Of a DNA stretch of 64,000 nt, positions 6,372 to 49,768 are shown piece after piece. Numbering within the stretch: position 1 is the stretch's first letter; every line of letters begins with the position of its first letter. The position numbers and the translations under genes are program-made. The notes under the pieces are model-generated. The model worked only from the letters and a program-made list of their open reading frames with translations, did not search any database and was not told the DNA's origin. This DNA is from Soonwooa buanensis (lineage in GTDB: Bacteria > Bacteroidota > Bacteroidia > Flavobacteriales > Weeksellaceae), in NCBI RefSeq assembly GCF_900167905.1, contig NZ_FUYZ01000010.1, positions 62,001 to 126,000 on the forward strand, given 5' to 3'.

Positions 6372-6402
6372 AACCAGCTCTTTTACTTTTTGTTAGTAAA
6401 AT

Positions 6403-6497
6403 AGCCCCGATAGAAGCGGCATCCTTTTGTGGATGCCGTTTTGCGTTTGGGATGGTGGCATCTACAAAAGATACAGCTGATAGCGGGATAAAGCTCC
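6403..6497 (+). ncRNA. Structured intergenic element, copy 1 (Flavo-1-like)
   Basis: The element begins AGCCCCGAT and ends GCGGGATAAAGCTCC. AGC pairs with GCT, and CCCG pairs with CGGG across a 4-nt bulge (ATAA). The apical stem is 14 bp (cttttgtggatgcc with ggcatctacaaaag, one G.U). Three further copies (24530, 49679, 58692) keep the ends and the bulge while the stem sequences differ. From memory this resembles the Flavo-1 RNA motif of Flavobacteriia. The family name is less certain than the structure. Confidence 0.65.
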
Positions 6498-32095: not shown

Positions 32096-33151
32096 ATGCT
32101 TGCTACACAAAGTCGTTTGTCTTTAATTATTGTATTTTCGATTTTGAGTCTACAGTATTCCGCACAACAATTTTCGTCCATTTATTCGAAAATAGATTCG
32201 GTGATGCATCAAGATTCACCAATTAAGTTTAATGGAAATATTTTAATAACAAAAGGAAAACAGAATCTTTATCAATCGAGTTTTGGTGTACAAAATTTTA
32301 ATACTAAAACCGCACTTAAAAATACTAACCGTTTTGAAGTAATGTCCATTACAAAGCAGTTGACAGCAGTTATGATGCTGAAAGCGGTTGAAGATTCGAA
32401 GCTAAATCTAGAAGATTCAATTTCTAAATATCTTCCTGACTTAAAAATGGCTTGGAAAGATTCTGTAAAAGTTTATCAATTACTGAATCATACACATGGT
32501 ATTGTAAAATTGGATCAAAAACTGGCTTATCCCGCAGGTTCAGAATTTCGATATGGAAATTTGTCATTTGCGCTTGCTGGTCAGATTTTAGAACAGATTT
32601 ATAAAAAACCTTATGCAGAACAAGCTACGACGTTTTTGAAATCTTTAGGTTTTAAAAATCCAGAAATTTTTACAAATAATAGCGGTTTGTCCAATGTTAA
32701 AGGACATTTAATCAACAATGAAAAAATTGAAGTTTTAGAAAAAAGTGGTATTCGACCAGATTTTGCTGCGGCTGATGGTTGGTTGGCGTCAACAAGCGAG
32801 TTAAGCTTTTGGAATCAATTACTTTATTCTGGTAAGATTTTGAAAAATAAAAGTCTACAAGAGTTTTTAAAAGGAAAAGCCCTGTCTCAACATGATGTTT
32901 TCGGAAAAGAAAAACAGCCTTACGGTTACGGAATTCGTGTTGTAAATGAGCAAAATATTAAATATTATGGACATACTGGTTTAGGTGACGGTTTTAGCGC
33001 ACTTAATATTTACATTCCGAAATATGATTTGAGTCTTGTTATCCTCGAAAATCAAATGCCTGAAAACAGCGATTATTATTACAATATTGAAACAAAAATC
33101 AAAAATTTATTAATTGATTTTTTAAGTAAAAATCCTAATCCAAAGTTTTAA
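32096..33151 (+). CDS. Serine hydrolase, beta-lactamase/PBP-like (class C fold)
   Basis: The 351-residue protein has a signal peptide (about 1-23). It carries the active-site SxxK motif Ser84-Ile-Thr-Lys87, the YxN motif Tyr153-Gly-Asn155, and HTG in YYGHTGLGDGF (about 295), which replaces KTG. This set belongs to the class C beta-lactamase-related esterase/peptidase family (COG1680), which usually acts as a D-aminopeptidase, esterase or carboxypeptidase. It should not be read as a resistance gene. It lies in the periplasm and is cotranscribed with the DUF4199 gene. Confidence 0.85.
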   Translation: MLATQSRLSLIIVFSILSLQYSAQQFSSIYSKIDSVMHQDSPIKFNGNILITKGKQNLYQSSFGVQNFNTKTALKNTNRFEVMSITKQLTAVMMLKAVEDSKLNLEDSISKYLPDLKMAWKDSVKVYQLLNHTHGIVKLDQKLAYPAGSEFRYGNLSFALAGQILEQIYKKPYAEQATTFLKSLGFKNPEIFTNNSGLSNVKGHLINNEKIEVLEKSGIRPDFAAADGWLASTSELSFWNQLLYSGKILKNKSLQEFLKGKALSQHDVFGKEKQPYGYGIRVVNEQNIKYYGHTGLGDGFSALNIYIPKYDLSLVILENQMPENSDYYYNIETKIKNLLIDFLSKNPNPKF

Positions 33152-33177
33152 AAACCTGATTTTACGGTTAACCGTAT

Positions 33178-33206
33178 TTTTGAAAGGTTTAACAAAACTA
33201 TCTTTG
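33178..33206 (+). promoter_or_regulatory. Predicted promoter of the candidate small RNA
   Basis: TTTTG (33178-33182) and an exact TAnnTTTG box, TATCTTTG (33199-33206), are 16 bp apart, with the expected start near 33213. No coding start follows on this strand. Confidence 0.55.
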
Positions 33207-33212
33207 GAAAAG

Positions 33213-33288
33213 TAAGTTTGAAGCTTACCTACCGAACTAAATATTGTATTGTTAAAGGCTTTTGCTGTTGTGGCGAACGCCTTTTTTT
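33213..33288 (+). ncRNA. Candidate small RNA of about 75 nt
   Basis: A predicted transcript runs from about 33213 to a terminator at 33254-33288 (12-bp stem with one mismatch: aaaggcttttgc / gcgaacgccttt, 7-nt loop, T7). A small 5' hairpin (gtaag / cttac) precedes a single-stranded middle part of about 30 nt. No open frame of useful length is inside, and the next gene on this strand is 1.4 kb away. The family is not recognised; it could also be a short leader remnant. Confidence 0.5.
33254..33288 (+). terminator. Terminator of the candidate small RNA
   Basis: The 12-bp stem (one T.C mismatch and one wobble pair) around a 7-nt loop is followed by T7. It could also end the serine hydrolase transcript, whose stop is 103 bp upstream. 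Confidence 0.8.
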
Positions 33289-33293
33289 AATTA

Positions 33294-33327
33294 AAAAAAC
33301 TGCTTCGGTTTCGCAAAGCAGTTTTTT
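33294..33327. terminator. Bidirectional terminator, end of VOC gene
   Basis: A perfect 12-bp stem (aaaaaactgctt / aagcagtttttt) with a 10-nt loop, 13 bp after the stop of the minus-strand VOC gene. The symmetric A/T runs suit both directions. Confidence 0.88.
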
Positions 33328-33339
33328 GTTTTAATAAAA

Positions 33340-33786
33340 TTAATGAGGTTGAACCTTGCTAGGATCGTCATAATTCATCATCCAGTTGATATTGAATTTA
33401 TCAACGAACATTCCAAAATAAGCGCCCCAAAACGTCTCCTGTAAAGGCATTGTAACCGTTCCGCCTTCTGACAGTCCATTGAATAATTTGTCAGCTTCTT
33501 CACGAGAATCTGCATTAATAGCAATCGAAAAGTTGTTACCAATTGTCAATCCTTTTCCCCAATCTGTGCCAGCGTCACTGCCCATTAACACAGTTTCTTT
33601 ACTAATTGGAAGTGTGATGTGCATAATTTTCTCTTTGTCTTCTTCAGAGATTGGTTTACCGTCCGTTTCGGGCATATCTCCGAATTTCCCAACGTGTGGG
33701 AAATCACCACCGAAAACTGATTTGTAAAAGTCAAAAGCCGCTTTGCAATTGCCTTCAAAAGTTAAATAAATGTTAGTTGTTGCCAT
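33340..33786 (-). CDS. VOC family protein, PhnB-like
   Basis: The 148-residue protein has the glyoxalase/VOC fold pattern of the PhnB (YjdN-like) branch. It has NIYLTFEGNCKAAFDFYKSVFGG at the N-terminus, MHITLPISKETVLMGSD in the middle, and a C-terminal WGAYFGMFVDKFNINWM. Such proteins are small metal-dependent dioxygenase- or glyoxalase-like enzymes; for this branch no reaction is established. It lies 100 bp downstream of the DUF4287/DUF5655 gene on the same strand. Confidence 0.8.
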   Translation of the reverse strand: MATTNIYLTFEGNCKAAFDFYKSVFGGDFPHVGKFGDMPETDGKPISEEDKEKIMHITLPISKETVLMGSDAGTDWGKGLTIGNNFSIAINADSREEADKLFNGLSEGGTVTMPLQETFWGAYFGMFVDKFNINWMMNYDDPSKVQPH

Positions 33787-49564: not shown

Positions 49565-49678
49565 AGGTTTTATAATTGTTTTGAAATAATTTTATTTTTA
49601 GGTTTTTCTAAACTTTCTCGATTTAACTTGATATTATTTATCAAACTAAAAATTTAGTTTAGCGGTATTTTGTAAACT

Positions 49679-49768
49679 AGCCCCGATTGCAGTGGAAATC
49701 CTTTTTGGATGAAATGGCATAAAGCTTTGGCATCCAAAAAGATTGCAACGAAAAGCGGGATTAGCTCC
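49679..49768 (+). ncRNA. Structured intergenic element, copy 3 (Flavo-1-like)
   Basis: It begins AGCCCCGATTGCA and ends GCGGGATTAGCTCC. Paired segments: AGC/GCT, CCCG/CGGG with bulge ATTA, TTGCA/TGCAA, and an 11-bp apical stem (ctttttggatg / catccaaaaag). It lies between purD and guaA, both on the opposite strand, so it is antisense to any read-through. Confidence 0.68.

Follow-up and report, generated by a model that had tools for sequence, protein, structure and literature searches.

A candidate response-regulator-activated small RNA predicted to pair with the lrp leader in Soonwooa buanensis

Response regulators of the NarL/FixJ class, RcsB and GacA/UvrY among them, activate small non-coding RNAs through a site that lies upstream of them, and the regulator CiaR is of the OmpR type. 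To our knowledge, few small RNAs have been characterized in Flavobacteriia, and few from this bacterial class have a known controller or target. A palindromic upstream sequence has been reported at the Rsm RNA genes (PMC2375449; PMC7911923). MicF, GcvB, and DsrA of Escherichia coli and ArcZ of Erwinia amylovora reduce Lrp post-transcriptionally, and Lrp has been described as a hub for small-RNA control (PMC6538786). Within the Bacteroidota, which are said to be without classical sRNA chaperones (PMC11697453), deletion of Rfp18 lowers two metalloprotease mRNAs (PMC9723704).

Here, we analyzed a 64,000-nucleotide stretch of Soonwooa buanensis DNA (the window). We propose that positions 33211 to 33288 encode a trans-acting RNA, sRNA1, that is activated by a response regulator and represses Lrp, and from the sequence comparisons below we give this reading a probability of about 0.7. 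From comparative sequence data, we infer that a TPR kinase and a NarL/RcsB-like regulator act as a pair, that the palindrome TACGGTTAACCGTA at -41.5 would be bound, and that polymerase would be recruited to TATCTTTG. The resulting short transcript would consist of a 5' hairpin, a single-stranded linker, and an intrinsic terminator, a layout that can be read from the sequence. Its linker would pair over 19 nt with the lrp/asnC leader (-26 to -8), the step for which the sequence support is strong. Pairing would block translation initiation, and the sensor's signal would lower Lrp. The regulator would, in addition, raise expression of its own gene through a promoter that lies within the kinase gene, and it would activate a second small RNA encoded directly behind the regulator gene.

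The features of the locus are collected in Table 1. An exact -7 box with an upstream TTTTG had been pointed out in the initial annotation, and both elements were found. Since TAnnTTTG is located at -12 to -5 in Flavobacterium psychrophilum (PMC9723704), the same placement here predicts a start at 33211 and an RNA of about 78 nt, which slightly revises the earlier estimate of a start near 33213 and a length of about 75 nt. The annotation had also described a small 5' hairpin, an unpaired middle, and a terminator hairpin, and the single-sequence fold (-17.8 kcal/mol; z = -1.76) returned that layout. Taken alone, this fold says little, because 13 of 200 shuffles folded at least as well. The linker is predicted to be mostly unpaired (0.77), and the last three bases of the seed are also the first bases of the terminator stem. 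A terminator scan of the window did not list the sRNA1 terminator, probably owing to the unpaired U/C that breaks its stem. Directly behind sRNA1, a second hairpin lies between A and T runs (33293 to 33327); it is probably the terminator of the VOC-type gene on the minus strand, with a backup function on the plus strand.

Table 1. Coordinates of sRNA1, its promoter and neighbors, and sRNA2 (window positions unless indicated)
Feature	Position	Strand	Remarks
Palindromic activator box TACGGTTAACCGTA (putative)	33163..33176	+	Center 33169.5, i.e., -41.5 from predicted start 33211
TTTTG upstream of -7 box	33178-33182	+	Read directly, located by script
-7 box TATCTTTG, consensus TAnnTTTG	33199..33206	+	Read directly, located by script
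sRNA1 (predicted small RNA, ~78 nt)	33211..33288	+	Start inferred from -7 box, end from T-run
5' hairpin GUAAGUU-UGA-AGCUUAC	33212..33228	+	Single-sequence fold
Seed in unpaired linker, UAAAUAUUGUAUUGUUAAA	33238..33256	+	All 19 nt complementary to lrp mRNA (-26 to -8)
Intrinsic terminator AAAGGC...GCCUUU + T7	33254..33288	+	Hairpin 33254-33284, T7 to 33288; fold
Serine-hydrolase-like gene (putative)	32096-33151	+	Upstream neighbor; name from initial annotation
VOC-type gene (putative)	33340-33786	-	Other neighbor; name from initial annotation
sRNA2	L073 4225-4335 (G000:C7, outside window)		Predicted; behind response-regulator gene; same operator and layout as sRNA1

Conservation was assessed by comparing the window species (G000) with G001, the only other species of the genus examined. 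A DNA search found the sRNA1 element in G001 at 76% identity (E = 2e-6), with TAGTTTTG as its -7 box and an extended match around the palindrome (ATTTTACGGTTwACCGTATTTT, 33159 to 33180). The 12-nt linker core AUAUUGUAUUGU (ATATTGTATTGT in the alignment) is identical in the two species, and the G001 copy has one A more than the exact G000 DNA pattern. The G001 homologue adopts the same three-part fold (z = -3.65), none of 200 shuffles being as good, and its linker is likewise predicted to be mostly unpaired (0.73). The 5' hairpin is closed by G-C in G000 and by A-U in G001, both sides having changed, and the inner stem of the terminator is built from different bases in G001 with pairing kept. 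A covariance model of sRNA1 gave E values of ~1e-16 in G000 and G001 only, among 296 genomes of the family; 27 of the other 294 genomes gave matches at E = 0.002 to 0.1, about the number that chance predicts. Because only two species carry sRNA1, the covariation evidence is limited to two positions in the target and a small number of pairs in the stems. Five DNA matches in genus g21 were taken as chance: L012 and L014 lie inside genes, L013 and L015 resemble the L012 gene, and L016 resembles a hairpin.

Proteins of at least 100 amino acids encoded in the 10 kb around the G001 copy had no counterpart in the window by tblastn (E = 1e-5). Since the RNA and its promoter are kept in G001 at this non-syntenic place, sRNA1 is not tied to either neighbor, and the retention there of both promoter and intrinsic terminator is what would be expected of a transcription unit of its own. 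Conservation away from both neighbors thus favors the free-standing trans-acting RNA that the initial annotation had envisaged and agrees with its view that the element is not a leader of the serine hydrolase or VOC gene. The outcome that it had named as counterevidence, loss from relatives while the flanking genes stay, is the reverse of what we found: in G001, the RNA and promoter stay and the flanks differ. The further statement that the locus encloses no open frame held for ATG frames, as no ATG occurs in 33207 to 33290 or in the G001 copy, and failed for one TTG-initiated frame that stays open in the window species. Given this frame, and a hydrolase frame that ends 59 nt ahead of the predicted start, the locus might, in place of a free-standing RNA, encode a short peptide or be read through from the serine hydrolase gene. 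We consider this extremely improbable, since neither species has an ATG, the shared frame has no shared start codon, and the promoter is kept in G001 next to a different upstream gene; a non-coding RNA fits these observations.

Rfam searches of 33100 to 33400 yielded nothing that reaches its cut-off (28 matches at E values up to 10, the lowest being 0.084). Flavo-1 (RF01705; cut-off, 42 bits) was absent from this interval, and GibS (RF04182) scored 21.5 bits at the sRNA1 locus against a gathering score of 115. Elsewhere in the window, two Flavo-1 elements were observed (6399 to 6494 and 49675 to 49766). The G000 genome contains at least 60 Flavo-1 matches at E ≤ 0.001 and at least 41 over the cut-off (150 of 797 candidates scored), a copy number so high that Flavo-1 looks like a dispersed repeat and not like one small-RNA gene.

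The interpretation given in the initial annotation is supported, yet it is incomplete in that the palindromic box, the regulon, and the target are absent from it. The pattern ACGGN4CCGT-N{21,25}-TAnnTTTG occurs four times in G000 and six times in G001, and the reversed pattern does not occur (0). Three of these sites correspond between the two species: one at sRNA1, one inside the TPR histidine-kinase gene just ahead of the response-regulator gene, and one just behind the regulator gene. We then sampled 34 genomes drawn over 33 genera of the family for TACGGN4CCGTA followed, with 8 to 38 nt allowed, by TAnnTTTG. This combination gave 34 matches in 12 genomes and 1 match in the reversed control, and the spacing was 22 nt in 27 cases, 21 nt in 4, and 20, 23, and 27 nt in 1 case each. 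The 10 genomes with a spacing of 21 to 23 nt are exactly the 10 that encode the response regulator (Fisher P = 7.6e-9, a value that overstates independence because the genomes are related); the outliers at 20 nt (G016) and 27 nt (G010) both come from genomes without it. The box alone is uninformative, because near-boxes with up to two mismatches are rarer in the whole genome (11 and 12 by strand) than in the reversed control (31 and 32), whereas the box combined with its spacing and a -7 box is informative. TACGG-N4-CCGTA followed by 20 to 24 nt and TAnnTTTG was absent from both strands of 100 window versions generated with a first-order Markov model. The box at -41.5, its constant spacing, and its occurrence together with the regulator make it a predicted operator of sRNA1, whose promoter thus seems to be part of a regulon under a response regulator.

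Boxes were also observed at other genes. One precedes a DUF4011 gene in G000 (L020, G000:C8:240317-240360), for which there is a weak PADLOC match (E = 1e-4), and one with a spacing of 23 precedes a type I methyltransferase (hsdM) gene in G001 (L076 1598); these two may reflect a link between the regulon and defense genes. Another G000 box has TTACTTTG replacing TAnnTTTG and lies before a gene whose product has a signal-like N terminus. This gene and the DUF4011 gene are the further members of the putative regulon seen in G000, and neither points to a particular signal. Finally, boxes precede look-alike genes in two genera (L024 on G000:C18 and L126 in G009), whose products have in common, by eye, a KVGDTLxLGxPT-like stretch and which are perhaps a conserved regulon member.

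The candidate activator pair, in which a histidine kinase with TPRs is combined with a response regulator of NarL/RcsB-like type, is encoded outside the window, at C7 of G000. A profile of the regulator found it in 10 of the 34 family genomes at E ≤ 1e-20. Its receiver domain scores above the Pfam Response_reg cut-off, and residues E9, D10, D59, and K117 are invariant in all 16 sequences aligned, which represent 16 of the 18 regulator loci described below. The predicted structure (mean pLDDT, 87; pTM, 0.65) has a helical C-terminal domain with helices spanning residues 157 to 218, and RcsB structures are its top matches in the PDB (E = 9e-13), one of them being RcsB on the rprA promoter. The Pfam GerE model does not detect this C-terminal domain. 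A receiver with an acidic pocket and lysine, joined to a modeled four-helix HTH, is the arrangement expected of NarL/FixJ (LuxR-type) regulators. G000 has a second copy of the regulator (C22:49105-49767), which may share the job. A two-component pair that its authors named PhoP/PhoR has been described in Riemerella (PMC5399024).

To the 13 regulator loci from the profile search, we added 5 named loci (Chryseobacterium gregarium, three Elizabethkingia, and Halpernia humi) and scored boxes that have 8 or more matches out of 10 and a spacing of 21 to 23. Of these 18 loci, 15 have such a box behind the regulator gene, and the remaining three are second copies; 11 of 18 have one ahead of the gene, and in 10 of 18 it is at -97 to -109 before the regulator start. 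Operator and -7 box were observed inside the kinase coding sequence (L073 3394-3437, that is, G000:C7:142893-142936; L072 around 2105, minus strand), from where they could direct transcription of the regulator gene. Position -41.5 is used by several activator classes, CRP/FNR-type regulators among them, and it is co-occurrence that connects the response regulator with the palindrome; a protein of another class might bind there instead. This seems very unlikely to us given that a correctly spaced box is present in 10 of 10 genomes with the response regulator and in 0 of 24 without it, and given the boxes behind the regulator gene itself. We thus favor the NarL/RcsB-like regulator as the putative activator of sRNA1.

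Behind the regulator gene, both species of the genus are predicted to encode sRNA2, again with a 5' hairpin, a linker, and a terminator. Its linker contains a 45-column stretch that differs between G000 and G001 by one change and one gap and ends in TTAAAATACACACACACTTTACATTTTTTGCG. No clear target common to both species was found for sRNA2, and Rfam gave three matches to it, all below cut-off. As raw energies, the calculated duplexes of sRNA1 with sRNA2 and of sRNA2 with the lrp leader came to -17.1 and -15.3 kcal/mol. At 9 of the 15 loci with a box behind the regulator, including those of both species of the genus, the transcript has no ATG frame of at least 25 codons starting in its first 120 nt, and at the other 6 it encodes proteins of 49 to 291 residues. 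A terminated RNA of about 80 nt is predicted behind the regulator at three Elizabethkingia loci; the terminator finder used at the regulator loci misses interrupted stems, including that of sRNA2 in G000.

Target prediction, which the initial annotation had suggested for the unpaired segment, pointed to a specific candidate, the lrp/asnC leader. In the whole genome, the best non-self match of sRNA1 and its promoter is an antisense match to the linker (19/19; E = 0.007). It falls at -26 to -8 of a gene for a 156-residue Lrp/AsnC regulator with Pfam HTH_AsnC-type and AsnC_trans_reg domains. The 12-mer ACAATACAATAT occurs four times per genome, counting sRNA1 itself (its reversed control occurs 0 times in one genome and once in the other), and one of the three non-self places is the same lrp leader in both species. 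Between G000 and G001, sRNA1 changes from CTAAATATTG to CTTTATATTG and the lrp leader from CAATATTTA to CAATATAA, so that two pairs are kept by matched changes. The G001 linker and leader form 14 continuous pairs, followed by a one-base bulge and then more pairs. We searched 34 genomes for lrp and read 30 leaders (two matches had no locus, and two genomes had no match). The exact site is present in 2 of the 30, which are the two species with sRNA1, and each of the other 28 leaders, one of which is truncated to 23 nt, has at least 3 differences in the 12 places.

Duplex energies were compared with a sample of start regions, not with all genes. The linker and lrp leader of G000 reach -19.5 kcal/mol, and none of 225 sampled start regions is as good (best, -16.0); in G001 the value is -16.3, and none of 143 is as good (best, -13.8). 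Swapping the linkers between species gives -17.7 and -14.6, so the own leader is better by 1.7 to 1.8 kcal/mol. The case is weaker with full-length sRNA1, for which 0 of 225 start regions in G000 and 1 of 143 in G001 equal or surpass lrp. Covariation is not visible in the full-length energies, because swapping the RNAs between species costs no strength (-29.8 and -27.0, against -29.4 and -26.4 for the matching pairs). The lrp site itself is predicted to be mostly unpaired (0.75 in G000 and 0.78 in G001). By these predictions, sRNA1 has a conserved single-stranded seed complementary to its candidate target mRNA.

The lrp complementarity could still be an inherited accident, with a real and regulator-controlled sRNA1 acting mainly on other mRNAs or on a protein. 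The lrp leader is generally alike in the two species, so the G001 site is partly a matter of shared ancestry, weak matches are numerous in AT-rich leaders, a single G001 start region beats lrp with the full-length RNA, and the cross-species pairs of the full-length RNA are equally strong. Other partial antisense matches to the linker exist at seven loci in G000, three of them at 15 to 16 of 19 positions inside genes (L183, L187, and L005) and the rest at 13 to 14 of 19; at L185, a 14/19 match lies just before another ATG. We nonetheless hold an accident to be unlikely: the 19/19 complementarity is the best in the genome and falls immediately upstream of a gene, the core is conserved, two changes are matched, and the exact site is missing from the other 28 leaders.

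If sRNA1 does pair with lrp, pairing might activate or stabilize the mRNA. The duplex stops 8 nt (G000) or, for its continuous part, 14 nt (G001) short of the start codon on a mostly unpaired site, where protection from a nuclease is conceivable, and a small hairpin is predicted over the lrp start codon in G001. That hairpin lies outside the paired stretch, however, and the G000 fold has no start hairpin that pairing would open. The known lrp-targeting RNAs repress, as far as they are described in PMC6538786, and Bacteroides FopS-10, which pairs near -6, suppresses translation initiation (PMC11697453). Activation is thus decidedly unlikely in our estimation, and repression of Lrp is the outcome that we would predict.

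Titles and abstracts among the matches listed from the open-licence literature describe neither the box nor the regulator nor sRNA1. We lean, with some reserve, toward the view that part of the family (Chryseobacterium gregarium, Elizabethkingia, and Halpernia humi carry the regulator) runs an undescribed circuit that resembles Rcs/RprA and Gac/Rsm. It would comprise a TPR kinase and a NarL-like regulator, a TACGG-N4-CCGTA box ahead of the regulator gene (in this genus, within the kinase gene), a box behind it that drives a fast-evolving, often non-coding RNA, and, in this genus, a box driving an RNA that silences the Lrp hub. A single sequence gives access to every part of the circuit (sensor pair, RNA, and target), with predictions at the level of single bases, so that a few mutants would be enough to test the proposal. 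The operator also allows the regulon of a response regulator without an assigned function to be listed in Elizabethkingia, Chryseobacterium, and their relatives. If the proposal is true, Lrp would count among the targets of small RNAs in a phylum that is said to be without classical sRNA chaperones (PMC11697453).

In kind, the proposed mechanism is ordinary, because enterobacterial small RNAs that lower Lrp and a Bacteroides RNA that suppresses initiation have already been reported. MicF, GcvB, DsrA, and ArcZ are the nearest parallels on the target side; they are Hfq dependent (PMC6538786), and the sRNA1 locus matches no Rfam family at its cut-off. An RRM-domain RNA-binding protein (Pfam RRM_1) is encoded on the minus strand in G000 (L187 74-400, G000:C11); RRM proteins are the class to which Bacteroides RbpB belongs (PMC11697453), and this one might assist RNAs of this kind. 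Bacteroides FopS and GibS and F. psychrophilum Rfp18 resemble sRNA1 as small regulatory RNAs of Bacteroidota; the passages cited here for FopS and Rfp18 do not link them to a response-regulator box (PMC11697453; PMC9723704). The CiaR-controlled csRNAs of streptococci likewise place several small RNAs under one two-component regulator (PMC8186281), but their regulator class, operator, and RNAs are unrelated to those described here. The closest likeness in design is to RcsB-RprA and to GacA/UvrY with RsmX/Y/Z and CsrB/C in Gammaproteobacteria, where a NarL/FixJ-class regulator and a small RNA with an upstream site are combined. Membership in the Rsm/Csr RNA family requires repeated GGA motifs; none is present between 33211 and 33288, so sRNA1 is not a CsrA/RsmA sponge. 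Compared with these systems, sRNA1 has a different operator, phylum, and -7 box, and its predicted target is an mRNA leader.
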